The notes: a model not told the origin generated them from the letters alone. Shown: positions 52-21,554, numbered from the stretch's first letter. The stretch: 22,050 nucleotides of DNA from a virus (IMGVR_UViG_3300048586_000192:1-22050); one strand, 5' to 3'. Made by a program: numbers and translations.

Positions 52-127
52 CACCCCCGCCGTTGCCGTGCCCAGGGTGAATCATGTTCCGAAAACCGGG
101 GCCAGAGCAGACTTCTTCAGCAGCCTG
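1..127 (-). mobile_element. Insertion sequence, IS5-type, one end only
   Basis: The minus strand from about 127 down to the window edge looks like the left end of an insertion sequence. It starts with CAGGCTGCTGAAGAAGTC, which resembles the terminal repeats of IS5/IS1182-type elements, and about 75 nt further in comes the start of an IS5-type transposase. It abuts the tetranucleotide CTAG at 128-131, which fits the YTAR target preference known for IS5-group elements. The insertion lies inside the nuclease-like gene that reads towards it. The other end and the second target copy are outside the window, so the exact boundary and the family assignment are inferred. Confidence 0.7.
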
Positions 128-5236: not shown

Positions 5237-5477
5237 TGCCTGTCTCCATGGTTCGGGCCAGCGCGTCATGTCGGCTGGCGCAGTTGCGAAGGGCCGATCG
5301 ATCCCGGCCCCACATGATTTCGACCTCGGCGCCCGTCAGATCCCGCGACGGCAGATCCACCGGCGACGGGCAGCGCACAAGCAGCGATGCCGGCGGCGCA
5401 ACCGGCGACGCGTCATCTGCGGCGCAGCCGGTCAACGCGGCTGCGAGACAGGCCACCAGTGTCATCCGTGTCGGCAT
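5217..5477 (-). CDS. Rz1-like outer-membrane spanin lipoprotein
   Basis: The protein has 86 residues and is nested out of frame with the 3' end of the Rz gene (65 nt shared), then runs on beyond it. The start ATG at 5477 has GGAGG nine bases upstream. The N-terminus is a lipoprotein signal ending in the lipobox LTGC, with Cys18 as the lipidated residue. The C-terminal half has IMWGRDRSALRNC, which resembles the W..DR..L..C signature of LysC/Rz1-type o-spanins. It should sit in the outer membrane and join the inner-membrane spanin to fuse the two membranes at the end of lysis. Confidence 0.85.
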   Translation of the reverse strand: MPTRMTLVACLAAALTGCAADDASPVAPPASLLVRCPSPVDLPSRDLTGAEVEIMWGRDRSALRNCASRHDALARTMETGNAAQVQ

Positions 5478-5703
5478 AGGCTTGATCCTCCAGCTCCTGC
5501 GCCAGGGCATTGCGTTCGGCCTCGATCGCCAGCCGCTCGGCCTCGATCCGGCTGGCGATCTCGGCATTGCGGATCGCCTGGGCCATGGCTTGCGCCGTGG
5601 CGGCCTCTGCGGCCAGCGCAGCCTGCTCGGCGCCGCGATACCAGCCTGCGCTGTAGGCCATCGCCAGGGCCGCCAACGCGCCAAGGGCAAGCCAGCCCTT
5701 CAC
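5413..5703 (-). CDS. Rz-like inner-membrane spanin
   Basis: The protein has 96 residues. It has a single N-terminal hydrophobic segment (about residues 3-18), then a long Ala/Glu-rich helix predicted to be a periplasmic coiled coil (about residues 25-75, e.g. SRIEAERLAIEAERNALAQE). That is the standard layout of an i-spanin. The start is GTG in a GTGA overlap with the endolysin stop. The Rz1 gene begins inside its 3' end in another frame, as in lambda-type spanin pairs. The C-terminal tail is Arg-rich, which may partly reflect the constraint of the overlapping frame. Confidence 0.85.
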   Translation of the reverse strand: MKGWLALGALAALAMAYSAGWYRGAEQAALAAEAATAQAMAQAIRNAEIASRIEAERLAIEAERNALAQELEDQAYADTDDTGGLSRSRVDRLRRR

Positions 5704-6263
5704 CGGCGCACCTGTGCCAGAACCTCGGCCGCCGACAGCGTGCGGACCGGCTTCCAGATCACACTGCCCGTGCGGCTGACCTGCCAGATAGAGGCGCGGC
5801 CGGTGGGGTAAACCCCGCGGGCAAACAGATCTCGCTCGGCCTGCCTGCGCGCGGTGACTTCCCTGGGCTTGGTCCAGTTCATGAACTGCGCGGCCGCAAG
5901 GGTCAGGTTCCCTGTGTTCAGGGTCTTGACCAGCGTGGCCCGCGCGATGGCGCCAGTATTGAAGTGAAAGCTGACCAGCGCATCAAACTGGTGCTGTGCG
6001 ATCGGGACCTTCACCGCGGCATTCACGGCCGCCTCATACCGGGGCAGATCCCGCGCCAGCACGCTGAACACCTGCCGCAGCTCGGCGTCCAGATCGGCCG
6101 GCATGCCACGGGGCAGGGTGATCGGGTCGGGTGTTCCAGCCTCGGCCGTGTGGCCGACGCCGTAGGTCCAAACTCCGACGCTGTCGCGGTACGGACCAGG
6201 CACGATGCCTTCATGCAGGACCAGCGCCACAGTGCCCTGTGGGGACATCTTCAGATCAGCCAC
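5700..6263 (-). CDS. Endolysin, GH24 lysozyme family
   Basis: The protein has 187 residues from a GTG at 6263 and hydrolyses the glycan strands of peptidoglycan. The T4-lysozyme-type catalytic triad is visible as E18-x8-D27-x5-T33 (HEGIVPGPYRDSVGVWTYG), and VSFHFNTGAI matches the conserved downstream helix region of the family. There is no signal-arrest or secretion segment at the N-terminus, so it probably depends on the holin for release. The longer reading from 6338 adds residues that are out-of-frame sequence of the 43-aa membrane protein gene. ATG at 6248 is an alternative start but has no ribosome-binding site, whereas GGAG lies ten bases before the GTG. About 30 C-terminal residues have no assigned role. 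Confidence 0.9.
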   Translation of the reverse strand: MADLKMSPQGTVALVLHEGIVPGPYRDSVGVWTYGVGHTAEAGTPDPITLPRGMPADLDAELRQVFSVLARDLPRYEAAVNAAVKVPIAQHQFDALVSFHFNTGAIARATLVKTLNTGNLTLAAAQFMNWTKPREVTARRQAERDLFARGVYPTGRASIWQVSRTGSVIWKPVRTLSAAEVLAQVRR

Positions 6264-6382
6264 TGGATCAGCACTCCGGTTGCAAGGATGATCAGGCCGC
6301 CGACCAGGGCGACCAGCATGCGGTATTTGAAATCGCACCAGGGCGATCGTGACGGCCTGCGAAGGGATCGGATGTCAAACAT
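6251..6382 (-). CDS. 43-aa single-span membrane protein in lysis cassette
   Basis: This short gene starts at ATG 6382, overlaps the holin stop by 8 nt and ends inside the endolysin start region. GGAG lies six bases before the ATG, a better ribosome-binding site than those of its neighbours. The product has a basic N-terminal half (Arg at 5, 8, 9, 12 and 21, Lys19) and one hydrophobic segment at residues 22-43 (MLVALVGGLIILATGVLIQW). A single span with a positive N-terminus, placed between holin and endolysin, suggests an antiholin, a second holin or a pinholin-like regulator. An in-frame ATG four codons earlier could give a longer form, reminiscent of dual-start holin genes, but it has no obvious ribosome-binding site. 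Confidence 0.7.
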   Translation of the reverse strand: MFDIRSLRRPSRSPWCDFKYRMLVALVGGLIILATGVLIQWLI

Positions 6383-6743
6383 CTCTGTCTCCATCGGCGG
6401 GCAACCGGCCGGCGCGGATGCGCGTCAAGACGACTTCCATGACGGCGGGGCCAAAGATGCCGGTCATGTAGGCCATGGCTCCGCCGGTTCCGAATGCCGG
6501 GATGGCGGTAGCTGGAAGGTCCAGCCAGTGCGCCAGAAGCGCGCCCAAGGTTGTGCCGCCCCCGGCAGCGGCAAGGGCGCCCAGAATGATCTGGCGCAGC
6601 GCCGCGCGCACACGGCCGCTGCCATCGTCGATCAGCAGGGCAGAGGTCAGGCCACCAGCGCCGCCCCACATGGCTGCGACGATGATGGTGTTGGCGACGA
6701 TCGAACGGATGATCTCGGCCAGGATGTTGGGTTCGTCGTTCAT
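6375..6743 (-). CDS. Holin-like membrane protein
   Basis: The protein has 122 residues with about three hydrophobic segments: residues 17-37, 50-73 and 79-105, separated by short charged loops, and a charged C-terminal tail (TRIRAGRLPADGDRDV). Size, topology and place immediately before a lysozyme gene make it the likely holin that opens the inner membrane for the endolysin. I cannot tie it to a particular holin superfamily. The ribosome-binding site is weak (GAG about eleven bases from ATG), which may keep its level low. The 36-nt gap to the tailspike gene is one of the larger gaps in the operon. Confidence 0.8.
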   Translation of the reverse strand: MNDEPNILAEIIRSIVANTIIVAAMWGGAGGLTSALLIDDGSGRVRAALRQIILGALAAAGGGTTLGALLAHWLDLPATAIPAFGTGGAMAYMTGIFGPAVMEVVLTRIRAGRLPADGDRDV

Positions 6744-6779
6744 CGGGTCAAACTCGTGCAGAGGTTTTGTTCGGCTGGA

Positions 6780-9338
6780 TCACAACTGCCGACCCTCGAA
6801 CCATGTGGAGGTCGCCGTGTCGCTGATCGTGCGCGATGCCGTCGTGATGGCGGCCACGGTATAGACATCGCTCGATGCGGGTTGATCTGTGGCCGTCAAG
6901 AGAATGCTGAGCGCACCTGAGGCTGCGCCGTGGGCGCGAGCCGTCGCAATGTCCGTGCCGTTCTTTTGTATCGCGATCCGGTAGATCTCGCCGGCAACCG
7001 CGTTCGAGAACGTGACTTGCGTCCGAAGCTCGACAAGCCCGCGTCCGGGGGTCCAGCCGTGCGCGGCGAATGCGGCACCGATATCCCAGTCCTCGACCTG
7101 GAAGGTCACGGTCGCCGTGCCGTTCACCGCCTGCGTCGCGTTCTTCTCTGCCTTGAACCGCTTCTTGGTGTCGTTGCCAACGGGCAAATACAGCTGCGAC
7201 GCCTCGCACCAGCGCATTTCGACGACATGGAAGACCGGCGACGCAAAGCCGATGAACTGCGCACGCGCCAATTGCGCGCCGACGACCTCGATCCCGGTCG
7301 TGTCGTAAACCGACAGGGAGGCCAGCCAGAAGCGGTCTGCCGTTTTCTCGCGGAAGGTCAGGGTTGCGACGTTGCCGGTGCCCTCGACGTAATAAAGGAA
7401 GTCCTGCTGGGGATAGAGATCCTGTGCACCGCTTTCCAGCAGGACAATCTCGTCATAGGCGTCCCGGTCCTGCCCGCCCCAGGCAGCAACGGCCGTGCGC
7501 AGGGTTTCAAGTGCCCGTGGGTCAGGATCCAATGCGACGTTGGTGATAGATCCGTTGCGCGTGGCATGGCCGAAATCCAGTTTTTCCGCCGGATCATACG
7601 GACCCTGCGGACCGGTCAAGCTTTCGAAATACCACTGGATGCCCTTCAGATCATCGGCTGCATCGCGGTTGTTCGCAACATGCACCCGCCACTTCAGCTT
7701 CAGGATGCCCGTCCCGGCCTCGTAGTACCGATGCGGCGCCCATGTCGGCCCCTCCAGGCTGTTGTATTCCCCTGCCGCGTCAAGATCGAGCGTGACGCCC
7801 TCCGTCCACGGCCCGGTCAGCAGAGGCGATGACCAGATCTCGATATTGCGGGCGGCGCTGTCCTTGATGCACACATGCCACAGGCTGTCGTGGTAGATGA
7901 AATCAGGGGCCAGCTTCGGAGTGCTGAGGGTGCCGATCTCCACATGGACCGGGTCGCTGAATGCCAGCGCGTCCAGATCGGTGCAGACCGCCCGCCACGG
8001 GCGGAAGCAGGGCGAGGTCGTATCGCCAAGATGGTTGGTGTAATCCGGACCGGTTCGGATCGAGATGACCACATGGATCTGGCCGTCCTCGCCCCGGAAC
8101 AGTTTCGGCCCCCAAAGCTGCGGCGCGGCCGTCACCGCGCCGGGCAGCATCGTGCCCCGCACACCTGCGCCGAGGCGGCACTCCTGAAACCGCCACGTCA
8201 CAGCGTCCGGGCTGCGAAACACGCCGAAGTCGTAGCTTTGCGCATCCCCGGCGGTGACCGCCAGCCACCACTCCTTCAGCTCTTCGACCCAAAACATCTT
8301 TGCATCGCGGGCGCCGACAGCGGCATCCCCGCCACCGCGCAGCATTTCCAGACGGTTCAAACGCTTGAACCGGCGGCCGTCAGGGCTGATGTGGATATGC
8401 TGGAACGTATTGTCCTGGGTCTTGAAGCCGGGGAATACGTAGAAGTTCAACAGGCTGTTCCCGCGAACGCCGTCCACCCCGAGGCTATAGAGTGCCGACA
8501 GCATTCCCGTAGCGGTGCTGTCGATCACGAAGTCATACCCTGCGACCGTGACGGATTGACCGTCCTGCAGGATGCCGCGCTCCAGCGCCGCCGCCAGTTG
8601 CGCGCGACTGGAAAAGTTCGGGCCGCACTCGAACAGATTGACCCCACCGGAGGTCACATGCGCAGGGTCGTAATGCTCCGATGTCGCAACCTGAAAGACA
8701 AGGTTCTCGATGCGCGTATTCAGGACCTGCCCATCAGGGAAGACCGTGGGGCTGCCCAGCAAATCCGGCAGCGTCTCGAAAAAGTAAGGCGCATACTGCG
8801 CGGCGGCTGCGGCTGCCAGCAAGGCCGTTTCCGCTGCGGCTTGCGCGCCCGAAACTTCGTCGATCGTCGGACCTGCGACCAGACCCGTGCCGTCTTCGTC
8901 CCAGGCGATCACACGACCCGGCGCCTGTGCCACCGGTGCGATCGGGACGTCCGCGCGAAAGGTGGTCTGCAATTGGGCGCCCAGTTCCTGCACCCGCATC
9001 ACCGTGGCGTCAAGCTGCTGCTCCAGCCCGCGTTCGCGGTAGCCAAGAAGACCTTGCCAGCCCTGTTCGACCGGCGTCTCCCGGGTGATGATCAGGCTGC
9101 CGCCTTCGTAAAGCGCGGCCGTTCCGGCGGTCAGGGTCAGGCTGCCGTCCGTGCCAGAGCTGGTCGGGTCCACCGCGTAGTCCGCGGGGTCAAGCACGAT
9201 ACGCTCCCCGTCATTGACCACAACTGCAATGACCCCGCCCTCCATATAGGGCCACGGGATATCGTAGGTTGCGCCGATCACGATCGTCGCGGGGGATGCT
9301 GCCTCGAAAGCTTCAACAGTCATTCTGTCCGTCCGCAT
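6780..9338 (-). CDS. Tailspike with predicted GH43-type propeller
   Basis: The protein has 852 residues. Residues 5-130 match the virion-attachment domain of T7-type tail fibres (YDIPWPYMEGGVIAVVVNDG, then SLIITRETPV and an RERGLEQQLDATVMR helix). An Ala-rich linker follows at about 160-185. Residues about 310-600 look like a five-bladed glycosidase propeller: WGPKLFRGEDGQIHVVIS, LAPDFIYHDSLWHVCIKD and SLEGPTWAP resemble GH43 blades, with D479 and E529 as candidate catalytic residues. The C-terminus (about 725-852, VTFSNAVAGEIYRIAIQKNG) resembles a C1q/TNF-like jelly roll for trimerisation or receptor contact. It probably degrades capsular or lipopolysaccharide glycans. ATG 9338 has no ribosome-binding site; ATG 9323, five codons in, is an equally likely start. 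Confidence 0.85.
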   Translation of the reverse strand: MRTDRMTVEAFEAASPATIVIGATYDIPWPYMEGGVIAVVVNDGERIVLDPADYAVDPTSSGTDGSLTLTAGTAALYEGGSLIITRETPVEQGWQGLLGYRERGLEQQLDATVMRVQELGAQLQTTFRADVPIAPVAQAPGRVIAWDEDGTGLVAGPTIDEVSGAQAAAETALLAAAAAAQYAPYFFETLPDLLGSPTVFPDGQVLNTRIENLVFQVATSEHYDPAHVTSGGVNLFECGPNFSSRAQLAAALERGILQDGQSVTVAGYDFVIDSTATGMLSALYSLGVDGVRGNSLLNFYVFPGFKTQDNTFQHIHISPDGRRFKRLNRLEMLRGGGDAAVGARDAKMFWVEELKEWWLAVTAGDAQSYDFGVFRSPDAVTWRFQECRLGAGVRGTMLPGAVTAAPQLWGPKLFRGEDGQIHVVISIRTGPDYTNHLGDTTSPCFRPWRAVCTDLDALAFSDPVHVEIGTLSTPKLAPDFIYHDSLWHVCIKDSAARNIEIWSSPLLTGPWTEGVTLDLDAAGEYNSLEGPTWAPHRYYEAGTGILKLKWRVHVANNRDAADDLKGIQWYFESLTGPQGPYDPAEKLDFGHATRNGSITNVALDPDPRALETLRTAVAAWGGQDRDAYDEIVLLESGAQDLYPQQDFLYYVEGTGNVATLTFREKTADRFWLASLSVYDTTGIEVVGAQLARAQFIGFASPVFHVVEMRWCEASQLYLPVGNDTKKRFKAEKNATQAVNGTATVTFQVEDWDIGAAFAAHGWTPGRGLVELRTQVTFSNAVAGEIYRIAIQKNGTDIATARAHGAASGALSILLTATDQPASSDVYTVAAITTASRTISDTATSTWFEGRQL

Positions 9339-9368
9339 GGAAATCGAATGGCAGACAGAAGACGAAGT

Positions 9369-9390
9369 CAGCGGATCAGGGGCTCCGCTG
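9369..9390 (-). terminator. Hairpin between internal virion gene and tailspike gene
   Basis: CAGCGGA and TCCGCTG form a perfect 7-bp stem with an 8-nt loop, located 18 nt past the stop of the 831-aa gene in a 69-nt gap. There is no good T-run, so it may be a weak terminator, a processing site or an mRNA-stability element rather than a full stop. Confidence 0.3.
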
Positions 9391-9407
9391 CGTTGGCTTG
9401 CACACTA

Positions 9408-11903
9408 TCACGGGGTATTTCCGAACGCATTACCTAAATCTGGTAGCCTGTCGGGCAAAGCCTCGCCCGGCGTCCACCATGGGGAGTTTCCGTATTCCTT
9501 CATCTGGCGCTTGATCCGCCGCCGCATCAGCGTTTCGGCCTCGGGATCAAGAAACTGGCTCAGGTTCTCCATGACCAGCCGGGAGTAGGCCGTCCGCGCG
9601 TACCAGGACGAAGACAGGAAGGGGGTGTAACGCTGTGCGAGCGCGGCAACATCCCGGCCCAGATGCGTATCCTCACCCTTGACAAGCGCGTTCACATTTG
9701 TGGCAACCGGCGAAATCAGATCGCCAAGAAAGCTGATCGACGGCCCGGCCACAGTGGAACCGAGGCCGCCGCCCATGCGGTTCTGTTCGGACGCAAAGAA
9801 ATCGCCGAAGATGCCAAGTCCACCGCCCTGGAACAGGGCGGCCCACCAGAACTTGCCTTCGGTCATCGGGCGCGGATCGTTGCCCTTCGCCAGCTCCTTC
9901 AGCTGCACGGCGACGGCACCCAGGACGATCAGCATGCTGCTGACCTTGGCGGCATACTTCGCCTTGTTCCAGCGCCCCTCGATCTGCGCAAAGCGGCGAT
10001 ACTGGTTCAGCATCAGCGACAGGGCAAAGCTCTTGTAGGTGAAGCTCGACCGCAGCAGCTCGCCCGGTATCGTGCCGGGCGCAGCCTCGCCCTGCATCCG
10101 CGCGCGGCCCTCGATGCTGGCTGTCGGCACCGCGAACTCCAGCTGCTCCTGGATCAACGCCTGCACGCGCATCGCCAGCCCCTCGGCCTCGACGCGCGGC
10201 ATCGCGGTCTGATGCTCCAGCCAGTAGATCGGGCTGATGAAATCCGCGCCGTTCGGGGCGGTGAAGCGCGCGGCAGGATCGCGCAGGGCGTTCCAGTCAA
10301 GGGGGGTGATCCCCCGGGCCTCGAAGGCGCGGCGCAACTGATCGGGCAGCATGTGAAAGGGCAGGTCGGCATGGTCCGCCATGTGCCCGGCGAATTCCAT
10401 CTGGAATGCGATCTTGCGCATGTCGGTGATCAAGCTCAGCCCCGTGGCGCGCAGGGTAAACCCCGCCAGCCGCTCGGGGATGCCATTGCCGAAGATCTGG
10501 CCGAACCAGCGCGCGGACCCGCCACCGGCATCGGCCAGCGCCTCGGCGACATAGCCCATGCGCGCGGCCGTCTGGCGGGTTGCCTGGCTGGCCATCAGCT
10601 CGACCGATCGGCCCAGGACGTTCCGGGCATTCATGCCCATGTGCTGCGCGGCTGCCGTGATCGTTGCCACATCGGTGACAGAGGACAGCACCGCGCTGCC
10701 CAGCTGGGCCGATGTCAGCACCGCCCGGGTGCCCGCGAAAAACCGCGCCATGGCGATATTCTCGGGCACATTCGCTGCGCCATCCATATGGGCCATCATG
10801 GTTCGGGCCAGCTTCGCCTGCTTGCCCACCGCCTCTTGCAGCGCCGCATCGCGGGCATCGGCCGCACGCTTGGTGGCAACTTGCGTCGCGAACTCCAGCC
10901 CCATGCGTGGGTTCGGTCCCAGCACCCGCATCATCGCCACGTCGCGCGCCAGCCCGTTCAGCCCGTTCATCATGGCCGAGAAGGGATCGGCAGCGCCGAA
11001 CTCGCGGTTGTATTCCAGCCAGGCGCTGCCATCGCGGAAATGCAGGACGCGATGTTCTGCCCGCTGGTTGTACAGCGCCTTGCCGCCCATCGTCATGCCC
11101 GGGTCCCGGGTGTCCCATCCACGCGTGACGATCCCGTCATAGACATCGCGCAGGAACCGATCGACATCCGCCCGCGCCGGAACCTGCCCCGGGGCGCTGG
11201 CAAAGGGCTTGCCGGTCGAAAGGTCGGTGATGCGGTCCCAGGCCAGCAGGCCATGCACGCGCTCTGCCCAGGCATCAACGCCTGCCTTGCGCAGCTGGCC
11301 GCTGTCATGGGTATGGGGCACGCCGTAATCGGCCAGATCGCCGATGTTGCCACCATGCGCATTGAACAGCCGGCGCATGCGTTGCTGCACCGTGCGCACC
11401 GCGCCCGCCAGCCCCTTGGCGACGGTATCGCCCGTGGCCTCTCCATGCAGCTCACGGATCAGCTTTTCCAGCAGTGCTGCATCGCGGCTCGATCCCACGA
11501 CATTCAGCCCGACCTTCTGCAGCACCTCGTTCAGTCCTGCGGCGATGCTGGTCTGATAGGCCTCCATGATCGACCGGACGCTTTCGCCCTTCCAGCCCGA
11601 TCCTTCGGAATACTCCAGCAGGTTGCGGATCGCGACGGCGGGATTGGGGGCCGTGTTGATCTGCTGCTGGATGCGGCGCATCGTCTGCAGCTGGTTGATG
11701 ACCTTGTGCCGGCGCTGCACCGTGGCGGCCTTCATCCCGGCCTTGACGTCGGCTGCCGCGGCCGCCCTGGCCTGCGCATCGCCCATGGTTGTGCGGTAGC
11801 GTGCCACCAGCTGTTCGTACTGGTTCAGCACGTCTATGCCGCGCTGCCGGTCCAGCTCGCCGAAATCCATCGCGCGGGTGAGGCAATCCGCCATGTTGGT
11901 CAT
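9408..11903 (-). CDS. Large internal virion (DNA-ejection) protein
   Basis: The protein has 831 residues, is strongly helical and has no secretion signal. The N-terminal 100 residues are a charged helical region (QRRHKVINQLQTMRRIQQQI). The middle (GKALYNQRAEHRVLHFRDGS, then DRPF/HMLPDQLRRAFEARGITPLDWN-type segments) and the end (SSFTYKSFALSLMLNQYRRF, SPWWTPGEALPDRLPDL) resemble large proteins found beside the gp14-gp16 type ejection genes of many podovirus-like phages. A hydrophobic stretch near SSMLIVLGAVAVQL could insert into a membrane. It starts at ATG 11903 with AGAGG seven bases upstream. I infer that it is carried in the head and ejected with the DNA; no enzymatic motif is apparent. 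Confidence 0.75.
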   Translation of the reverse strand: MTNMADCLTRAMDFGELDRQRGIDVLNQYEQLVARYRTTMGDAQARAAAAADVKAGMKAATVQRRHKVINQLQTMRRIQQQINTAPNPAVAIRNLLEYSEGSGWKGESVRSIMEAYQTSIAAGLNEVLQKVGLNVVGSSRDAALLEKLIRELHGEATGDTVAKGLAGAVRTVQQRMRRLFNAHGGNIGDLADYGVPHTHDSGQLRKAGVDAWAERVHGLLAWDRITDLSTGKPFASAPGQVPARADVDRFLRDVYDGIVTRGWDTRDPGMTMGGKALYNQRAEHRVLHFRDGSAWLEYNREFGAADPFSAMMNGLNGLARDVAMMRVLGPNPRMGLEFATQVATKRAADARDAALQEAVGKQAKLARTMMAHMDGAANVPENIAMARFFAGTRAVLTSAQLGSAVLSSVTDVATITAAAQHMGMNARNVLGRSVELMASQATRQTAARMGYVAEALADAGGGSARWFGQIFGNGIPERLAGFTLRATGLSLITDMRKIAFQMEFAGHMADHADLPFHMLPDQLRRAFEARGITPLDWNALRDPAARFTAPNGADFISPIYWLEHQTAMPRVEAEGLAMRVQALIQEQLEFAVPTASIEGRARMQGEAAPGTIPGELLRSSFTYKSFALSLMLNQYRRFAQIEGRWNKAKYAAKVSSMLIVLGAVAVQLKELAKGNDPRPMTEGKFWWAALFQGGGLGIFGDFFASEQNRMGGGLGSTVAGPSISFLGDLISPVATNVNALVKGEDTHLGRDVAALAQRYTPFLSSSWYARTAYSRLVMENLSQFLDPEAETLMRRRIKRQMKEYGNSPWWTPGEALPDRLPDLGNAFGNTP

Positions 11904-11917
11904 TCAGGCACCTCTGT

Positions 11918-12016
11918 TCAGGAATGCCGTGGGATCAGCGGACACCACTGACCCAGCAAGCAGCCTCGTTCACACGGCTTTTCGGTCTTTGGGCATATGC
12001 CCCCGGGAATACTCAT
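11918..12016 (-). CDS. 32-aa Cys-rich small protein
   Basis: This gene fills nearly all of the gap between the gp16-like gene and the 831-aa gene. Its ATG overlaps the upstream stop in an ATGA junction and has GGAGGG five bases upstream, the best ribosome-binding site in the neighbourhood; it ends 14 nt before the next start. The product has four cysteines, C8, C15, C19 and C25, around ICPKTEKPCERGC, with few other hydrophobic features. Four closely spaced cysteines could bind one zinc ion or form disulfides. I do not recognise a family, although tiny Cys-containing proteins of this kind do occur in phage structural regions. Confidence 0.65.
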   Translation of the reverse strand: MSIPGGICPKTEKPCERGCLLGQWCPLIPRHS

Positions 12017-15000
12017 GCTTGCCCTCCGTTCGGGATGATGCCGCAGGCCTGAATGACCGCATCCGCCGCTTCATCAGCGTCCAGATCGTCCAGCAGTTCG
12101 CGGGCGGTGTAGGTTATGTCGTCGATTTCGATCGACAGGTCTGAAAATTCGCCGCGCAGGCGTTGCATCTCTGCCGCGACAGCATCGACCTCGGTGGCGG
12201 GTTCTTGATCCGAGGGCGGATCGACGCTATCTTCTTTCTGCAGCGGTGCGGAAGGGGAAGAGCCTTCCGGCAATTCGTCAGCCCTCCCCGTAATACGGTT
12301 GGCACTCCGCTGCGCTCCCCCATCTGCCTCCCGTTCATATGCAGTTAGAAGCCAGGTCTTTTGGGCTCCGTCATGGTCAAGCCGTATCACGACGTTGTCG
12401 GTATCGCTGGCGAGGCGGATGCGGTTCTCAGATCTGCTGATGACCTTATCAGCGCGATCAAGCCTTCCCTGCAGATCATCCAGAACCTCGGGGTGATACT
12501 TCAGGATTTTTGCCAACCCTGCGCCGTCGCCGCGTCCCGTTCCCTCATGGCCCCAAACCAGAGAGATAGGACCAGCCTCTGCGTGATGCAGCGCGCCGGG
12601 CGCTTCCCCAGATTGACGCGCGACCAGTGCGTCCACCGCGCCGCGCCAGTCGTTTTCAAATCCGGAAAGCACCGGCCCGAAGGGCCCATCCGCTTCCAGA
12701 TCGGCACGCATGGCAGCGTCGGCCGCTTCTGCCTCGACGCTGGCGGCGCCCTGGTCAAAGCCCGGATCGGGCAGGGGCGCCGGTTCGCGCGACGCAGGTG
12801 TTGCATAGCCGCGCACCGCGCCCATGTCCTGCGGCAGGTCTCCAAAGGCAGCGCGGTCGATCGTGATCAGAACATCGCGCGGGCCGGGCGTGTCGAACAT
12901 GCCACCCGTTGCACCGGCCTTGCGGGCCTCGTCCGCGTAGCGTGTCAGGAAACCGGCAACGTCCTCGGCCGGGGCTGCACGGCCGTTGCGCCAGAACTTC
13001 TTCACCAGGGCGGCGGTCAGCGGCGCAATCGCGCCCTCGATCAGATCGACCTCGTCCAGAAGCTCGGCCACGGCCTTTGCGATCGGCAGCTTCTGGCTTG
13101 CGGCCAACTCGCGCGCGGCGGCGATCAGGCGCATCGCATCCAGCACATGCCCGCCGATGTCCATATCCGGGGAAACGCGACCGGCCTCGATGTCGGCACG
13201 CAGGGCGGCCCAGCCGGGTGCCGCAGTTTCCAGTGCTTCCAGCAGGCTCTTCAGCTCGGCCGCATTGCCTTCGGTATAGCGCGCCAGAATATCGTCATCG
13301 GGCCAGGCGCGCGCGAACAGGGCCTCGCGCAGCTGCCGCTCGCCCAGGCTGTTCAACATGCCGCTGGCTTCGAACATCGCATTGCGCGCCGACCGGGGCA
13401 GGGCCGCAAGGGCAGACCGCACGAAATCCGCGTTCCCCTCGGCGCGGATCGGCTGCGCCGGATCCAGCCTCCCAAGGACTTCGGGCGTCATGGCGCGGCT
13501 GGAGGTGCGCGCCACTTCGGTGGGCGTCATGACCGCAACGCCACTGTCCTGGGCGGCAACGGTAAACCGAACGCGATCTTCGCGGCTCAGCTCCGATTTG
13601 CGGCGGGCGACAAGAACCGGCCGCTGCACGCCCTCGGGCACGGCAAAGCCCGCCGCCTCGATCTGGGCCCGATACTGCGCCGCGCGGTCGGGGTGCTTTT
13701 CATAGGCACGCAGGATCGCCCCATAACGGCCGTTGCCGCTCTCGATCATGCCGTCCGGCCCGACAACGGGCGGCCCCCGGTCGGCCGTGGGCGAAGGCAT
13801 CAGCTGCGCAGGATCCAGTCGCGCGGCGGTGTCCGCGATCCAGGCATCCGATGTGATGCGGCTGCGGTCACGCGGCTGGAAATCACCGCTGGCCCGGAAC
13901 AGGCTGTCGGCGTCCACGATCTCGTAATCCACATCAATGCGGAATTCGTCGCCCGCTGCGACTTGGCCTGATCCGGTATAGCCGCGCGAGGTGGGCCCGA
14001 TGTCCTCGGATCCTGCGACATAGCCGCCACGGTTCGGGTCCATCTTGGATCGCGCCCAAAGATGCAGATCGTGGGCAGTGAATTGGTCCAGACGTTTCCC
14101 GCCGAAGCGAACGCCTTTGTTGTCCGCGATTTGCTTCGGGCTCATCAGCTGGGTGACTGGCGTTTCCGGCGCAGCTTTCAAAACCCGTATCGCGCCGGTG
14201 GGGCCGAGAAAATGTGCCAGATAGCGTTCGCCAGCTCCGACCGTTTCGATACCGGCCGCCTTCATCGCGGCGGTATTGTCACGCATGTAGGCGCGGGTCA
14301 GCTCGCGGCTGATGGCAGGATCGCGGCGAAGTTCTAGCACCTCTGCAGGCGTGCGCCCCTCCAGCAGGTCGGGCCTGTGGGTGCGAACAACTTCCAACCA
14401 TGTGCCGTCCAGAAACTGACCATGCCCGGTCGCGCTGCTGTTCGGGTTCACCGCATCCGATCGACCGCTGCTTTCCGCGCCGATCAAAAGGCTGACTTCC
14501 TCTTCTTCGGTGAGCGGCGCGGATCGGCGTGTGCCAGTCGAAGGCGCAGCCCTGTAAGCGGCGCCCGGCACGAAGTCCGTTATGCCAGCGCGCCCAGCTT
14601 CGATGGCCTTGCCAAAATAGGGGTCCAGTGATCGCGCCTTGGTATCGGGCCCCCAAGACATGACCGATCCGCCGCCAACGTGGACGCCCCACTCATAGTG
14701 CCCGATCCCGGGAAATACCTTCGCCGCCTCGAAGAAGAAGCGGGCATACAGCTCCTTGTCTTCACCGGGGCGCACGGGCACGCCGTTGCGCGTAAGAACC
14801 ACGTCACCAGTGTGCGAGTGCCCGGTGTGATCGACATCGTGCCGTGTCGAGCCGGTGCGCTTCCCGCCCGGCGTTCCGGCCGTGTCCTGTCCACCCGATA
14901 CGATGACCACGCCGATATCGTCACCCAGCGGAGCCACGGCACCGCGCAGGCGGCCCATGAAATCTTCGCTGACCGGCTTGTCGCGGATCTTGCCTTCGGT

Positions 15001-16041
15001 CGAGACGACGACATTCACGGCATCGGGGGCGCGGTGCGACCGCGTGCGGCCAAGTATGCCCCCCATCGTGCCGGGCTCGGGATCCGGTGCGGGATCTGAT
15101 GGTCGCGCTTTCGGGCCAACCTTTTGCTGCACCGTTTCGTCGCCGCGCAACCTTGCCTCGGCCTCATCGATCTGGATTTCCGCCTCCAGCTCGTCACCCT
15201 CGCGCGCGGCCGCGCGGATGCCGTCGCGGTGGCCGCGAAACAGGCTGACCGCTTTTCCAATGCCCAGCAGGCCTGCCGTCAGGCCGCCGCCAAGCACTGC
15301 GCCCATGCCAATGCGTGAAACGGCATCCGGCCGTTCGATGCCCAGCTCCTCCGACACTTCGGTCTCGCGCGGCAGGATCAGGGCTTCGCCCACGGCGCCG
15401 GCCAGTGCTTCGCGCGCGATCATCTTCCAGGCAGCACCCGAACCACCGCCAAGGGGCAGGGTCAACAGGCTGACCTGATCGGTCATCGCCCGGGCGGAGG
15501 TGCCCAGAAATTCGGCCACCGCGCCGCCGTCCTGATCAAGGATCCGCTCGGCTGCTTCCAGCTCGGCCCTCCGTTCGTCGTTGATGCGGCTGTCCATGCC
15601 TTCCTTGGTCAGGGGAAAGCCCGCAAACAGCTTTGCCGTTTCCGGGGTCATCTTCGCGATCGTGGCGGCTTCCTCCATCACGATCTCTTCAAAGGTGGTC
15701 CAGCCGGTGGTGTTGTCCGCAAATCGCGACCAGACGCGTGACTTCACATCCTTCGGGAGCAGATCGAACATCTGGTCTGCGACCTCGCGCCGCTTGCCCG
15801 CCGCATAGTCCCAGGCATCGGTGCGGATGGTCTCGGCCTGCCAGCCGGCGGCGACGACATCGTCAAAGCCTGCATCCGTGTCGGCTGGCGCTGGCAGCCC
15901 GACCTCGGCTTCGGGAAGGTCATCGGGAACGTCAAAGCGCGGGGCGGCCGGCGGCTCGTTGTTAGACGGCGGTCTAACGTCGCCGCCGTCCAGGGCCAGC
16001 GTGCCGCCCAGGTCTTCGTCCTTTTGTGCGAAGTCGTTCAC
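12013..16041 (-). CDS. gp16-like polyvalent ejection protein with peptidoglycan and nuclease domains
   Basis: The protein has 1342 residues. In order: an acidic, low-complexity N-terminus (1-60); helical and Gly-rich segments, one hydrophobic at about 245-268; an M15-like metallopeptidase region at about 340-465 (RHDVDHTGHSHTGDVVL with H401, H408 and D413, then GVHVGGG with H454); a lytic transglycosylase SLT domain at about 511-665 with catalytic E523 (GAESSGRSD, NPNSSATGHGQF); a ddrB-like ParB domain at about 705-815 (QPRDRSRITSD, then GPDGMIESGNGRYGAILRAY); a long helical region; and a barnase/colicin-E5-like nuclease domain at about 1121-1240 (GPISLVWGHEG, GAGLAKILKYHPEVL, WLLTAYERE). It corresponds to T7 gp16 in position. 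It should open the cell wall during DNA ejection; the ParB and nuclease domains suggest action on host DNA or RNA after entry. GTG start in a GTGA overlap. Confidence 0.85.
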   Translation of the reverse strand: MNDFAQKDEDLGGTLALDGGDVRPPSNNEPPAAPRFDVPDDLPEAEVGLPAPADTDAGFDDVVAAGWQAETIRTDAWDYAAGKRREVADQMFDLLPKDVKSRVWSRFADNTTGWTTFEEIVMEEAATIAKMTPETAKLFAGFPLTKEGMDSRINDERRAELEAAERILDQDGGAVAEFLGTSARAMTDQVSLLTLPLGGGSGAAWKMIAREALAGAVGEALILPRETEVSEELGIERPDAVSRIGMGAVLGGGLTAGLLGIGKAVSLFRGHRDGIRAAAREGDELEAEIQIDEAEARLRGDETVQQKVGPKARPSDPAPDPEPGTMGGILGRTRSHRAPDAVNVVVSTEGKIRDKPVSEDFMGRLRGAVAPLGDDIGVVIVSGGQDTAGTPGGKRTGSTRHDVDHTGHSHTGDVVLTRNGVPVRPGEDKELYARFFFEAAKVFPGIGHYEWGVHVGGGSVMSWGPDTKARSLDPYFGKAIEAGRAGITDFVPGAAYRAAPSTGTRRSAPLTEEEEVSLLIGAESSGRSDAVNPNSSATGHGQFLDGTWLEVVRTHRPDLLEGRTPAEVLELRRDPAISRELTRAYMRDNTAAMKAAGIETVGAGERYLAHFLGPTGAIRVLKAAPETPVTQLMSPKQIADNKGVRFGGKRLDQFTAHDLHLWARSKMDPNRGGYVAGSEDIGPTSRGYTGSGQVAAGDEFRIDVDYEIVDADSLFRASGDFQPRDRSRITSDAWIADTAARLDPAQLMPSPTADRGPPVVGPDGMIESGNGRYGAILRAYEKHPDRAAQYRAQIEAAGFAVPEGVQRPVLVARRKSELSREDRVRFTVAAQDSGVAVMTPTEVARTSSRAMTPEVLGRLDPAQPIRAEGNADFVRSALAALPRSARNAMFEASGMLNSLGERQLREALFARAWPDDDILARYTEGNAAELKSLLEALETAAPGWAALRADIEAGRVSPDMDIGGHVLDAMRLIAAARELAASQKLPIAKAVAELLDEVDLIEGAIAPLTAALVKKFWRNGRAAPAEDVAGFLTRYADEARKAGATGGMFDTPGPRDVLITIDRAAFGDLPQDMGAVRGYATPASREPAPLPDPGFDQGAASVEAEAADAAMRADLEADGPFGPVLSGFENDWRGAVDALVARQSGEAPGALHHAEAGPISLVWGHEGTGRGDGAGLAKILKYHPEVLDDLQGRLDRADKVISRSENRIRLASDTDNVVIRLDHDGAQKTWLLTAYEREADGGAQRSANRITGRADELPEGSSPSAPLQKEDSVDPPSDQEPATEVDAVAAEMQRLRGEFSDLSIEIDDITYTARELLDDLDADEAADAVIQACGIIPNGGQA

Positions 16042-18197
16042 TTGCGGGCCTCCCGCATCAGTTCCTTCAGGGAAAACCGCCAGGCGCGACCGGCCGGATC
16101 ATCGGCCTTGGGCACGGCATAGACGCGGCCATTGCGCACCTGCGTCAGCTCGTAGATGTCGCTTTCGCCGACGCGGCGCAGCGACAGGTTCGACCAGGTC
16201 GCGGCCGGATCCTTGCCAAGGTTCGGCACGGATCCGTCAATGCTTGCCGCCTTGAATGCGCGCAGGCGTTCCGGGGCAGCTACGGCCTGATCGTCGGGCC
16301 AGCCATAGGCGTCTTCGCCCATGATGTTCATCTTGACGCGGCCCTGAAGGTGCCAGCCAAGGTTCTGCAGGGTCTGGTCAACATCATCGACCGAAACCCC
16401 GGCAGGCAGATAGACCGGCCGGTCGTTCACCTCCTGCAAGCCCCCCACTGTCAGGCCGCCGTTGGGATCTGCGCTGGCGCCAAGGACCCGCTGGATCGAT
16501 GTCTGGAACAGGGCCTGTGCTTCCTCGTCATCCATGAAGGGGATCACGCTGTCGGCGCCGTCCGGGTTCACGCCGGCGGCGCTGTCGGCATAAAGCGCGC
16601 GCGCCGCGCCGATCAGTTCGGCCTTGATCTTGGGATCGGCATCGAATGCGCCGCCGGTCTGCTGGTCGAAGATCGACGTCATCTGCTTTTCGCTGGGCAG
16701 GTTCACGGTGCCCAGCTGGGCCTGCTGCTGGCCGCGCAGGATGCTTTCGGCAAGGGCGGGGTTCCCGGTTGCGGCCAGCGCCCGGGTGGCGCGCACGAAA
16801 ACCGGATCGGCCTCCAGCACGCCGGCCAGCCGATCGATCTTGCCGCCGCCGGCCGCCAGAAGGCTGCGCGCCAGAACCAGCTTTGGCCCCGGATCGGCCT
16901 TGGGGTCCAACACGGTTTTCAGGCGGGCCTTCTCGTCGGCGCTGACGATCGCCTGCGTCCGTGTCCAACCCTTTTCGGTTGCCACGCCGTCATAGCTGAT
17001 GCGCGCGGCCAGCCCCTCGGCAAAGGCCGCGGGGTTGGCCGGGTCGAAATCGGGCAGGGCCGGGGGCTTCTGCCCGGTCTGCTGGGCCAGCGCGATATAG
17101 TCGCTGTCCGCCTTTGCCGCTGCCTCGTCGCGCCATTTCCGCAGCACATTTACCCGCTCGGCCTCCCAGTCATGGGTTTTCGGGCGCGTCATCTCGGCGT
17201 CGATCGCGGCGTCCAGCTCGGCCACGGTCATCGACTGAATGCCGGGGGTTTCATCGCGCAGCGACTGGGCTGCCTGAGTTGCAGGCCACTTTGGATGCGC
17301 CCGAACCTCGGGATCCTTCAGATAGGCCTCATCGCTGACGGTAAACCCCTGCGACATCAGCCCGCCCATTTCGTCCAGCCGCTTGCCGATGGCGTCGGAC
17401 CTTGCCTTCGCGCCAGCCTCGGCATCCTTTGCAGCGGCGGCCGCGCGGCGGTCCACCTCGCGCTGTGCGCTGATCCGGTAGTCTGCAAGGCCGCTGCCCA
17501 TGGCCGCCCATGGGCCGACGCTGCCTTCCTCGTCCGGCGTGGTCGCGGCAAGAAAGCCCTCGGGATCGTCGAGGATCATCTGCTTGGCGCGGGCGCCATA
17601 GATGCTTTCGGATAGGGCTGCCTTTTCCTTTGCGGCCTGTTCGGGCGAAATGCTGCCTGCAGCCAGCCGGTCATCGATCGCGGCCGCGCCCATCTCGACA
17701 TAGGCATCCAGCGTGTCGGGATCGGCCACCGCCGCGCGGGCAGTGACATCGGCCTGAAACTCGACATAAGCCGCCTCGCGCTGCGACTGGCGCAGGCCGA
17801 TGGCCCGGTTGCCAAGGGCAAGGCCATGACGGTCGTTCAATTCGGTGAAGGCCAGATCCAGCTGTGCGGCGGTTTCCGCATCGTATCGCTGCTGGCCGTT
17901 CTCGTCCGGGCCCAGATACTTCGACCGGATCTCGGCCGATCGCTGCTGCCAGTTGGCATCGATCGCGTCCGGGTCGCTCGACTGTTCGACCTCTTGCCGC
18001 GCCTGGCCAAGATCGCGGGCAATGTCCAGCTGTGTGCGGCGCATGGTCAGCTGCTGGCGTTGCTCGCGGAATTCCAGCTCGCGCGCCTGAATGCTGCGCC
18101 CCAGATCGGCCACGGCATCGCCGATGTCGGGGGTGGCCACGCGCACATCGGCGGAACGCCCGGCGATGACGCCGGCGGATGGAACCGTCAGGCTCAT
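16038..18197 (-). CDS. gp15-like internal virion protein
   Basis: The protein has 719 residues, almost entirely helical and rich in Ala, Asp, Glu, Gln and Arg, with coiled-coil character in the first 170 residues (ELEFREQRQQLTMRRTQLDI). There is no signal peptide and no catalytic motif. The last 110 residues switch to beta-type sequence (DQTLQNLGWHLQGRVKMNI, DIYELTQVRNGRVYAVP). Size and place between the gp14-like and gp16-like genes match T7 gp15, which forms the periplasmic tube for DNA entry. It starts at ATG 18197 in an ATGA overlap and has GGGGGTG upstream. Confidence 0.8.
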   Translation of the reverse strand: MSLTVPSAGVIAGRSADVRVATPDIGDAVADLGRSIQARELEFREQRQQLTMRRTQLDIARDLGQARQEVEQSSDPDAIDANWQQRSAEIRSKYLGPDENGQQRYDAETAAQLDLAFTELNDRHGLALGNRAIGLRQSQREAAYVEFQADVTARAAVADPDTLDAYVEMGAAAIDDRLAAGSISPEQAAKEKAALSESIYGARAKQMILDDPEGFLAATTPDEEGSVGPWAAMGSGLADYRISAQREVDRRAAAAAKDAEAGAKARSDAIGKRLDEMGGLMSQGFTVSDEAYLKDPEVRAHPKWPATQAAQSLRDETPGIQSMTVAELDAAIDAEMTRPKTHDWEAERVNVLRKWRDEAAAKADSDYIALAQQTGQKPPALPDFDPANPAAFAEGLAARISYDGVATEKGWTRTQAIVSADEKARLKTVLDPKADPGPKLVLARSLLAAGGGKIDRLAGVLEADPVFVRATRALAATGNPALAESILRGQQQAQLGTVNLPSEKQMTSIFDQQTGGAFDADPKIKAELIGAARALYADSAAGVNPDGADSVIPFMDDEEAQALFQTSIQRVLGASADPNGGLTVGGLQEVNDRPVYLPAGVSVDDVDQTLQNLGWHLQGRVKMNIMGEDAYGWPDDQAVAAPERLRAFKAASIDGSVPNLGKDPAATWSNLSLRRVGESDIYELTQVRNGRVYAVPKADDPAGRAWRFSLKELMREARK

Positions 18198-18751
18198 GCG
18201 GTGGCACCCCCACGATCAAAACCGGGCCATAGGTCAGGCGATCCCTTCAGCACGCTGTCGGCCGCGCTGAAGGTGCCCTTGAGGAAAGAACTCACACCCT
18301 CCCAGCGGGCGGCCTGTGCCTGGGCATCCAGCTCGATCTGGCGGGCGCTGCCCTGGGCGCGGATCGCCTGGCTGTCAAAGCTCATCTCCTGGGCGGCCGC
18401 CTGGCCCAGGGCAAGCGATGTCGGGCTGGACAGGTCAACGCCGCGCGCGGCCAACTCGGCCCGCTGCTGGCTGATCTGCGACATGTACTTCTTGCGCGTG
18501 CGCTGATCCTGCACGGCGGTCAGCTGCTTTTCGGTTTCGGCTTGCTGCTCGATCGCGGCTTCCTGCGCCTTTGCCGCCTGCATGCCCATGATCCCCTGCG
18601 TCAGGGAACCGGCGACGGAAAGCGCGGTGCCGATACCCGAAAACGCCCCGGCACCAGCTGCCGCCGCTCCGGCCCCTGCCGCCGCCGCGCCTGCGCCGGC
18701 AGCCGCGCCGCCACCCATGCCAAGTACACCCAGTATCGCTGGCCCACACAT
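18194..18751 (-). CDS. gp14-like internal virion protein
   Basis: The protein has 185 residues. It begins MCGPAILGVLG and continues with a Gly/Ala-rich stretch of short repeats (GAAAAGAG), then a long charged helix (residues about 60-110) and ELAARGVDLSSPTSLALG. This arrangement is typical of T7 gp14-type proteins, which enter the outer membrane during DNA ejection. The start ATG shares its first base with the stop of the tail tubular B gene (TAATG). The Gly/Ala repeat is encoded by a GC-rich imperfect repeat (about 18640-18720) that could vary in length. Confidence 0.8.
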   Translation of the reverse strand: MCGPAILGVLGMGGGAAAGAGAAAAGAGAAAAGAGAFSGIGTALSVAGSLTQGIMGMQAAKAQEAAIEQQAETEKQLTAVQDQRTRKKYMSQISQQRAELAARGVDLSSPTSLALGQAAAQEMSFDSQAIRAQGSARQIELDAQAQAARWEGVSSFLKGTFSAADSVLKGSPDLWPGFDRGGATA

Positions 18752-20964
18752 TAGCGTCCTGCCTCCTCAACAACGGGGACGATGGAAGTGATCGTGACAG
18801 GCGCACCGCTGAACGGGCGCACCACAACTTGCAATTCGCGCGCGGTACCGGACACGCCGCCGGTGTTGACGACGCCCGAGATCACCTCGGTCAGCGGGGC
18901 CGCGACCGGCATCTGGATCAACGGCCGCTCGCGCAGCTCGGTCCGGCGCTGCGGCTCGACCTCGACTACAGCGGTGCGGGCCTGCGCGGTTCGGGCAAAG
19001 CTGACCGCGATATCCTTCAGGCGCTTCTGCCGCCCGGTGGTATCGCCGTTCGGGCTCGCGGCCTGCACGTCCAGCGTGATCAGCTCATGCGTGGCATCGA
19101 AAAGGCCGACCCAGGCATGGGTGACTGCCGCCGGCAGTTCCAGTGTTCCGGCCTCGTCCATCGTCACGGTCAGGTCCGGAAAGGCGCCCTCGTTGCTCCA
19201 GACATGCACGGTTTCGCCCGCCAGATGCGGCACCAGGATTTCCGACACCGGCGTTTCCACCGAGACACGCAGCGCGGCAAACAGGTGGTTGGCCTCATGC
19301 GCCGAGGCGTCGGGGTCCATGGCCGTGAAGGGCAGGGACATTTCCTCGACAAAGCGCCGGGTCTGCCCTTCGATCACGCGGCGCACGATCATCATCACCA
19401 CGTCCATCGATCCGGTGACATCGGGCACCACGGCCATGGCCTCGACCACGCCACCGGCCACCGGCACCACCGACCAGCCCAGAACCTCTTCGGCCGGGTC
19501 ATAGATCATTGCGGCCAGATTGCCCGACGCCTGCCTGACCCAGGCGGTGGGCTCGGGCGAGGATTGCCAGACGAGATCCTGAAATCGGTCACTGCCGATA
19601 TGCTGCGCGGGGCGCGACAGGCTTGATCCCCGGGTGCGGTCTTCCTGCAGGGTGAACTTCTGCAGCATCAGCCGCCGCTCGTCCCGCGTGATGAAGATGG
19701 GATCGCCGTCCGGGCAGATCGGTCGCCCGCCGTTCGATCCGGCCGATCCGATGGTCTCAAACACGGCTGTCGTCGGGCCGATCGCCTGCGCCCGGGTTTC
19801 GCTGCGGGTCGCGAATTCTTCGCCCAGGGCGAAGATGTGAAGGCCCGCCGCGCCGCGCTTCAGGTTCAGGATCCGGTTGATCGAAGACGTGCCCGCGATG
19901 GTGTAGGCAAAGGGGTTGTCCGGATCTGTCCCGTCCAGGAAATCGGCATAGGAACCGACCCCGGAAAACCAGATCGTGCGCGGCTCGCGCGTGGATGACG
20001 CCGCCACAAGGCGCTGGTCGAACAGCTCGATCGCGGATGGGTAGCCATGCCGGGCCGACCACGCGCCCTCGGACCAGCGATAGGTCGATGATGCGACGAC
20101 AGACGATGGCAGCCGCTTGACAACCTGCGCGACCGCCACGGTGTCCGATGTGATGCTCGTGATGCGCAGCACGCCGACGCGGTCGGAAATAAAGCGCCAG
20201 ACCTCGAATTCGCCAGTGCGGGAGTCTCCGCTGCTGTGGACTGGGGGATTTTGCCCGGTGTTGGTGCCCTCGATCAACTCGTAAGTCTTGCCATCGTAGA
20301 TGCACCGCTCGCCGACCGACCAGTCCGTGTTCGACACCCAAAGCGCGACATCGGTTTCATCGGTGGGCGTCATCCGGATCAGCGAACCGACATGGTCGGC
20401 GGTGAAGAACGACCAAGACGCGGTCAGGGTGATGCTGCCGGTTTCACCGCTGGCTTGCAGGGTGCGGCTTTCGACCGTGTTCTGTACGCGGAACGGACCT
20501 CGGTTCAGCTCCTGATCCTCGATCGTCCAGTCATCCAGCGCAAGCCGCGACAGGCGTTTCATGGGATGCGCCCCATCCACCAGATAGATCACGTCCGCGG
20601 ATTGCACCCATTGCAGGTTCGGCAGATCTTCGGCGCCATAGGGCGTGGCCAGCCGATAGGGCGATGCGCCGTCCATCACCAGCTCGCCATAGCGCCAGAC
20701 CCGCATCCAGTTCGGCACGAATTCCAGAACCAGCGCGTCATTGGCGGCAAACTGGAACGGGATCAGGATCCCGGCCGCATCGTTGCGGGTGCGCCCGCGA
20801 TAGATCGTGCCCGGTGCGCGCGTGATGCCGCCCTGCGGCAGGGGCAGAAAGCCCCGGCATCTGGACAGCCCCGACTGGAACCGCAGGTAATCAGACCGGC
20901 GATGCAGCAGCGGGTCGATCTCGCCCGATGAAAATGACCGCTGGGCGGGGGAGGTCCGGGTCAC
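18751..20964 (-). CDS. Tail tubular protein B / nozzle protein, gp12-like
   Basis: The protein has 737 residues. The N-terminus, with SPAQRSFSSGEIDPLLHRRS followed by LSRCRGFLPLPQGGITRAPG, is a well-known opening of large structural proteins in podovirus-type phages, where it forms the tail nozzle. The rest is mainly beta. The size is close to T7 gp12 (794 aa), and the place directly after the gp11-like gene fits. It starts at GTG 20964 in a GTGA overlap. It should form the lower part of the short tail that contacts the tailspikes and the ejection machinery. Confidence 0.85.
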   Translation of the reverse strand: MTRTSPAQRSFSSGEIDPLLHRRSDYLRFQSGLSRCRGFLPLPQGGITRAPGTIYRGRTRNDAAGILIPFQFAANDALVLEFVPNWMRVWRYGELVMDGASPYRLATPYGAEDLPNLQWVQSADVIYLVDGAHPMKRLSRLALDDWTIEDQELNRGPFRVQNTVESRTLQASGETGSITLTASWSFFTADHVGSLIRMTPTDETDVALWVSNTDWSVGERCIYDGKTYELIEGTNTGQNPPVHSSGDSRTGEFEVWRFISDRVGVLRITSITSDTVAVAQVVKRLPSSVVASSTYRWSEGAWSARHGYPSAIELFDQRLVAASSTREPRTIWFSGVGSYADFLDGTDPDNPFAYTIAGTSSINRILNLKRGAAGLHIFALGEEFATRSETRAQAIGPTTAVFETIGSAGSNGGRPICPDGDPIFITRDERRLMLQKFTLQEDRTRGSSLSRPAQHIGSDRFQDLVWQSSPEPTAWVRQASGNLAAMIYDPAEEVLGWSVVPVAGGVVEAMAVVPDVTGSMDVVMMIVRRVIEGQTRRFVEEMSLPFTAMDPDASAHEANHLFAALRVSVETPVSEILVPHLAGETVHVWSNEGAFPDLTVTMDEAGTLELPAAVTHAWVGLFDATHELITLDVQAASPNGDTTGRQKRLKDIAVSFARTAQARTAVVEVEPQRRTELRERPLIQMPVAAPLTEVISGVVNTGGVSGTARELQVVVRPFSGAPVTITSIVPVVEEAGR

Positions 20965-21554
20965 AGCCGCGCCTCCGTCGCCCAGTCACCCTGTTCGGCA
21001 AGCCCGTCATACCGGCCTTCCGATGCCGATCGGGCGTCCTCGCGCGAGGCTTCCTTCAGCGTGTTGCGCAGTTCGTCCTTCAGCTCCTGCATGCGCGCCT
21101 CGGTCACAGACCAGCGCGCGCCCAGCACCACGGCCAGGCGCAGGGAAACAGCGGCCTGGAAGGCAGCAGGGGTTTTCGTCTCGTCCGTGATCTCGCCGGT
21201 GTAGCGCACATAAAGCGGCGCGGTCACATTGGCGCGCAGTCCGTCGCGGTCGATCCGCCACTTGACCGAAGCGTCGCCCACTTCGCGGATCTTCACCACG
21301 TCGCCGGGAATGCCGAACAGATAGGGCAGGTCGGGATCGGGAACGGGATCACTTTCCAGCGTCGAGAGGATGCGCCGCGTCGATGCAAAGGACCAGTCGG
21401 TCTTCTCCAGGCAGAATTGCATGGCCAGCGGGTACTGTTCGCGCGCGGCTTCCGCTTCCTCGCTTTCGTCGCCCAGGCTGCTGATGGGGCTGCGGCCGAT
21501 CAGGCGCATGGTCTGCGCCACGATTGCGGAATTGGCGGGGTTGAACTCCGGCAT
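20961..21554 (-). CDS. Tail tubular protein A, gp11-like adaptor
   Basis: The protein has 197 residues. The opening AQTMRLIGRSPISSLGDESE and the helix REQYPLAMQFCLEKTDWSFA, ending before RRILSTL, match T7 gp11-type adaptor proteins, which form the ring joining the portal to the nozzle. The C-terminal half is helical (ARMQELKDELRNTLKEASRE). The start ATG 21554 has AGGAGAG four bases upstream, a strong ribosome-binding site. The gene begins a new translational block just after the hairpin at 21576-21599 and overlaps the nozzle gene by 4 nt. Confidence 0.85.
   Translation of the reverse strand: MPEFNPANSAIVAQTMRLIGRSPISSLGDESEEAEAAREQYPLAMQFCLEKTDWSFASTRRILSTLESDPVPDPDLPYLFGIPGDVVKIREVGDASVKWRIDRDGLRANVTAPLYVRYTGEITDETKTPAAFQAAVSLRLAVVLGARWSVTEARMQELKDELRNTLKEASREDARSASEGRYDGLAEQGDWATEARL

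Follow-up and report, generated by a model that had tools for sequence, protein, structure and literature searches.

A phage gene whose product joins wall-opening domains to a nuclease-like domain raises the question of what the nuclease is for, and of how the cell that produces it is protected. The gene lies in IMGVR_UViG_3300048586_000192:1-22050, a virus record of 22,050 bases (here the window, meaning the whole 22-kb fragment that was analysed). The open reading frame is situated on the minus strand at positions 12013–16041, has a GTG start and encodes a gp16-like protein of 1342 amino acids. A first-pass annotation, made from the sequence alone, had described a polyvalent protein in the ejection-protein position that joins wall-opening and nucleic-acid-acting domains. 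Pfam, PHROG and fold matches, together with the virion gene neighbours, bear this out, and the matches of all four domains exceed chance. With a probability of about 60%, the protein opens the cell wall and carries into the freshly infected cell an optional enzyme that targets RNA.

The candidate enzyme is a PBECR1 domain at residues 1118–1240 (12322–12690, minus strand), termed slot 2 here. Residues 1151–1238 match PBECR1 (PF18809) with E = 3.5e-4, and residues 1119–1238 share 57% identity with Bbp10 of Bordetella phage BPP-1. The slot 2 domain of a relative, L097, passes the PBECR1 cutoff with 29.0 bits. Among 74 distinct PBECR1 sequences, positions corresponding to H1183 and W1230 are conserved in all 74, K1178 in 73, H1153 in 72 and T1233 in 70. 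The core of the BECR fold consists of a His on a helix followed by four to five strands, with a Ser/Thr on strand 4 (Iyer et al., 2017, PMC5512222). The model of the window domain shows the same topology, with H1183 on a helix, then four strands, and T1233 on the last of these. Foldseek and VIA-align searches with the model give mostly BECR-type proteins (CdiA-CT toxins, BrnT, RelE, YoeB, HigB, ParE, T4 RegB); the matches are individually of low Z (5.2 or less), yet consistent. A PDB profile search with PBECR1 sequences gave no match, and the gp16-like protein has no match in PADLOC. Where PBECR1 is found among the 80 viral loci listed with it, it lies mostly inside large proteins. The domain is thus predicted, from sequence and model, to have the BECR fold with the His/Thr site of metal-independent endoribonucleases. 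The nuclease domain proposed in the first-pass annotation stands to that extent, with an intact site and a Pfam score of 21.5 bits against a gathering cutoff of 27.6.

Two alignment-based scans gave 54 viral loci that encode related carrier proteins, and a scan with a 13-sequence alignment gave 19 further loci in bacterial genomes, where a first scan with a 4-sequence alignment had found nothing. All 19 are alphaproteobacterial, mostly Rhodobacterales (Paracoccus, Salipiger, Palleronia, Mameliella, Albimonas, others). Several of these loci lie within large chromosomal contigs and are therefore prophages. Salipiger marinus DSM 26424 has the alarmone-synthetase allele, while in Paracoccus haematequi no cargo is recognised. 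The relatives in Rhodobacterales chromosomes point to a temperate lifestyle of the window phage as well. The carriers display a common architecture: a conserved N-terminus, slot 1, ddrB-ParB with a helical module, slot 2 and a conserved tail. The order hydrolase, ddrB, cargo, tail holds wherever the parts are recognised.

In 54 carriers that were compared, slot 2 contains PBECR1 in 9, a RelA/SpoT-like domain (Tas1-like alarmone synthetase) in 10, a zeta-toxin kinase in 2, an ADP-ribosyltransferase (ART)-like domain in 2 and LPD3 in 1; no cargo is recognised in 30. These counts are inflated by near-duplicates (L097/L101, L104/L106, L107/L108, L131/L132/L134/L148 and L140/L141). The profile of the RelA/SpoT-like cargo finds Tas1 as its best match (E = 3.3e-14), which we take to be a type VI secretion system (T6SS) (p)ppApp synthetase effector. 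The Zeta_toxin match has E = 2e-18. The ART-like cargo of L142 and L144 is recognised by motif only (RG, S-x-S, GGEV) and has no match by Pfam or PDB profiles. It is improbable that the cargoes, PBECR1 among them, are inactive as enzymes here and serve as spacers or as RNA-binding parts of the ejection protein. The MuF protein of phage Mu does carry a PBECR domain judged inactive (PMC5512222), and many carriers manage without a cargo; but the active-site His and Thr are near-invariant in the 74 homologues, and the slot takes unrelated enzyme folds rather than a single scaffold.

The cargo is not clustered by descent: mapped on a tree of the ddrB and helical core, its label requires 22 changes, whereas shuffled labels average 22.4 and come out as low in 95 of 200 shuffles. 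Well-supported sisters carry different slot 2 contents: RelA-like in L138 and ART-like in L142, ART-like in L144 and none in L169. Other sisters also differ, as in L123 (PBECR1) and L159 (none), or L125 (none) and L137 (RelA-like). In a further well-supported sister group L097 and L101 carry PBECR1 beside L099 and L122, which carry none; the DNA of L097 and L122 is 90% identical up to the left junction and 82% identical past the right junction. The window itself has a twin (L003/L091, 94% identity in the best segment) that is without PBECR1. The twin retains a 70-bp stretch, at 83% identity, from the linker trailing PBECR1 in the window (12226–12297, minus strand) and in L097. The simplest reading of these sequences is that the cargo was lost in the lineage of the twin by in-frame deletion. 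Slot 2 is exchangeable, and phages of this kind seem to swap weapons within a single delivery protein.

The N-terminal linker of the window protein contains, in frame (DVRPPSN), a palindrome, GTTAGAC-4-GTCTAA(C), at 15961–15978, and the palindrome recurs in the cargo-less slot 2 of L099 (8602–8619) and L122 (from 8603). It is not present in the twin L003. In IMG/VR the 18-base form is found in only two further contigs, L176 and L178, in both cases within other open reading frames. It is possibly a mobile linker or a recombination substrate.

The first-pass annotation had also asked how the producing lysogen is protected from the nuclease. In 22 of the 24 cargo-bearing members the next virion gene, a phrog_684 gene, abuts or overlaps the stop codon of the carrier gene, and nearly all cargo-less members are alike. 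These 22 consequently have no room for a directly downstream immunity gene in cis, and such a gene, by which polymorphic toxins are recognised, is no part of the system. Two cargo-bearing members do have a gap, of 109 bp in the window and of 1.6 kb in L142. Since no cis immunity gene can directly follow in the 22 and some relatives are without the nuclease, this late virion protein carries the cargo as an optional module and not as half of a toxin-immunity pair. A late virion protein would not need to spare its producer, and the cargo may matter only after ejection. The question is answered in part: an immunity gene cannot directly follow in these 22, and could still be present elsewhere.

The 109-bp gap of the window houses a 32 amino acid Cys-rich open reading frame (MSIPGGICPKTEKPCERGCLLGQWCPLIPRHS; 11918–12016, minus strand), which starts on the stop codon of the gp16-like gene. 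The gap is absent from the twin and from nearly all relatives. As an immunity peptide this open reading frame was rejected, having no homologue in phages or in the fetched loci, while other PBECR1 carriers are without the gap. In L142 the insertion between the gp16-like and phrog_684 genes (9165–10778) is 1.6 kb long and holds a 274 amino acid open reading frame, which presumably resembles a BRO-N/antirepressor-type protein. L124 displays a 1.6-kb gap in the same place.

These gene junctions also bear on a different function for the cargo, that of a polymorphic-toxin weapon of the MuF kind which kills or arrests non-lysogenic competitors while lysogens are guarded by a cognate immunity protein. 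In its favour, MuF toxins and bacterial effectors share part of the cargo repertoire seen here (BECR RNase, RelA-like, ART-like, zeta), and relatives are prophages. Against it, however, stand the tight junction with phrog_684 in the 22 members and the comparison of near twins, in which the phage with PBECR1 has, close to the gene, no additional DNA beyond the cargo and one 118-bp stretch. A weapon of this kind is accordingly judged improbable. The cargo pattern as read from these sequences supports effectors that would act in the infected cell.

The DdrB-like ParB domain of the window protein is situated at residues 699–815 (13597–13947, minus strand) and matches PF18763 with E = 3e-32, so that the earlier call of this domain is confirmed. 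R772 of the SGNGR motif, the conserved pocket Arg, is invariant in 13 of 13 rows of alignment A5. The helical module follows at residues 831–1080 (12802–13551, minus strand) and in this set is always paired with ddrB-ParB. Between residues 685 and 830 the window and its twin differ by 26 synonymous and 0 nonsynonymous changes. This constancy, and the retention of the module whatever cargo is present, would suit a structural role or one in packaging or ejection rather than in anti-restriction, with slot 2 alone acting on the host. Such a role is unlikely, although less so than either idle cargo or a MuF-like weapon: DdrB-ParB is a known polyvalent domain with a conserved pocket Arg, which is invariant here, and DdrB of phage P1 is part of an ejected antirestriction set. 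The conserved C-terminal tail of approximately 45 amino acids (residues 1296–1335; 12037–12156, minus strand) may have a packaging or docking role.

The N-terminal half begins with a conserved module (residues 40–310; 15112–15924, minus strand) and continues with slot 1, which across the carriers contains M15, SLT, Phage_lysozyme2 or Peptidase_M15_3 domains. The window protein carries two domains here. Slot 1a is a domain of hedgehog/DD-peptidase (M15) fold at residues 334–492 (14566–15042, minus strand). Residues 337–488 have no sequence match in Pfam or PDB, and structure was used because a PDB profile search gave chance matches only, all to ribosomal L13. The AlphaFold2 model of these residues has a predicted local distance difference test score (pLDDT) of 86. 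In VIA-align its ranks 1–38 are hedgehog/M15 proteins (HhN, Zn DD-peptidase 1lbu, ChiX, LysECD7, LysB4, Ply500, VanX, endo T5) with Z of 4.6–6.9, against 3.5 for the next unrelated row. The His-Asp-His zinc triad, H401, D413 and H454, is invariant in 9 of 9 homologues, and the M15 region shows a ratio of nonsynonymous to synonymous rates (dN/dS) of 0.03 relative to the twin. Slot 1b is a lytic transglycosylase (SLT) domain at residues 509–684 (13990–14517, minus strand). It matches the PHROG transglycosylase phrog_4067 (E = 3e-21), and residues 528–644 match phiKZ gp144 (3bkh, E = 2.6e-5; 9xps, E = 2.4e-5). Residue 528 pairs with gp144 residue 120 in the native numbering of 9xps, which by offset places E523 on gp144 E115; E523 is nearly invariant in alignment A5. 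The earlier calls of an M15-like domain and of an SLT domain with E523 were thus right, the former for fold and metal triad. Both domains probably open peptidoglycan, judging from fold and residues. In the relative L126, residues 283–364 of a 1068 amino acid protein (4786–7992) match Peptidase_M15_3 above cutoff in slot 1, a different M15 subfamily from that of the window.

The preferred reading, a wall-opening protein that delivers an optional enzyme, can then be put as follows. The window protein would be the large ejection protein of a Rhodobacterales podovirus, at the place of T7 gp16, and is presumably packaged and ejected with the DNA. By analogy with T7 gp16, its N-terminal half would work in the periplasm, where its M15-fold domain and lytic transglycosylase would open peptidoglycan. 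The C-terminal half, with DdrB-ParB and the helical module, the effector slot and the tail, would reach the cytoplasm. The domain order observed is compatible with such a split. In the cytoplasm PBECR1 would most likely cut host or early RNA for a short time after entry, either to shut down the host or to blunt an RNA-based defence. Related phages would bring in a Tas1-like alarmone synthetase, a zeta kinase, other domains or nothing in the same slot. The suggestion that this is the first protein into the cell finds no support; gp14 and gp15 of T7 leave no later than gp16.

Several points weigh against the preferred reading. The window PBECR1 scores under the Pfam cutoff, and its model is moderate, with pLDDT 75 and a predicted template modelling score (pTM) of 0.62. 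More than half of the carriers have no recognised cargo, which makes the cargo dispensable. Because the relatives were gathered with ddrB and helical-region patterns, the constancy of these parts reflects ascertainment to some degree; L006, which was retrieved with the whole protein, matches by its N-terminus and M15 and has no ddrB. The acidic position adjoining the last zinc ligand of M15, E450, varies as E/S/A/G/K in alignment A7. The usual catalytic acidic residue is thus not conserved in this subfamily and the peptidase may be weak. For the family we found neither virion proteomics nor activity data.

The gp16-like gene occupies the podoviral slot for the largest ejection protein, and its synteny extends to about 50 relatives. 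Read towards lower coordinates, the virion operon, all on the minus strand, encodes a tail tube A-like protein (20961–21554; phrog_394, E = 1.5e-26), a tail tube B-like protein (18751–20964; phrog_376, E = 1e-150), a gp14-like internal virion protein (18194–18751; phrog_418, E = 6.5e-20), a gp15-like virion protein of 719 amino acids (16038–18197), the gp16-like protein, a phrog_684 virion structural protein (9408–11903; E = 5e-161) and a tail fibre. The gp15-like protein is assigned by position and by a gene of similar size in the same place in relatives; its gene shares 4 bp with the gp16-like open reading frame. The phrog_684 gene comes next after gp16 in every relative where it was located. 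The gene order matches that of the relatives fetched here, and that of BPP-1 as far as bbp10. The protein in the tail-fibre position (6780–9338, minus strand) has a weak Pfam match to the GH32 N-terminal (beta-propeller) domain. Over a stretch of 2.2 kb in this region the 94% twin shows no matching DNA, which suggests that the receptor-binding part has been exchanged. At 117–1406 (minus strand) a 429 amino acid protein matches the PADLOC phage-defence candidate PDC-M36A (E = 8.6e-210), possibly an anti-phage gene carried by the phage.

A broader proposal is held more tentatively, at slightly less than even odds. Podoviral ejection proteins of Rhodobacterales would have a dedicated internal cargo bay that exchanges growth-arresting enzymes (BECR RNase, Tas1-like alarmone synthetase, zeta kinase), delivered without a cognate immunity gene, a phage counterpart of contact-dependent inhibition (CDI) and T6SS effector repertoires. 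The family amounts to a natural experiment, in which near-identical phages either have or lack the nuclease and close relatives hold another enzyme in the same slot. Comparing alleles makes the benefit of an ejected nuclease to the phage directly testable, and the family defines natural boundaries for cargo removal. Searches of the literature found no paper on podoviral ejection proteins with toxin domains and no test of PBECR domain function.

T7 gp16 is alike in gene order, large size and a wall-opening domain in the N-terminal part; no sequence match between it and the gp16-like protein was found here, and T7 gp16 is not known to have a ParB or nuclease cargo. MuF polymorphic toxins of temperate phages (PMC5576092) are likewise phage-encoded carriers with alternative toxin domains. 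However, their cargo is C-terminal and followed by a small open reading frame, a directly downstream immunity gene having been reported, whereas here the cargo is internal and as a rule no open reading frame fits between the genes. Bbp10 of BPP-1 carries the related PBECR1 (over 120 amino acids) at the same place in the virion gene order, but is a 2052 amino acid protein with other domains, and the transglycosylase is annotated in a separate gene, bbp11. The Helicobacter jhp1044 family also shows an orthologous carrier, PBECR with DdrB-ParB and extensive domain shuffling. It has four PBECR domains, duplications and rearrangements, whereas the carriers here mostly hold one cargo, flanked by a module and a tail that stay constant. 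The proposal of polyvalent proteins dates from 2017 and was based on domain architectures (Iyer et al., PMC5512222). The gp16-like protein is a phage polyvalent protein in that sense, a kind already known: two or more domains with unlike activities (wall hydrolases, DdrB-ParB and PBECR1) share a single chain, and the gene lies among late virion genes. Phage members described there, including an Acinetobacter prophage fusion of ddrB-ParB and lysozyme, are alike in late-gene context and in mosaic blocks of wall hydrolase, DdrB-ParB and PBECR. In contrast, the present case is one orthologous ejection-protein gene with fixed ends, two positional exchange slots and cargo-less alleles. What is new is this slot organisation: within one ejection-protein family some alleles lack a cargo and others hold alternative toxin-like enzymes.

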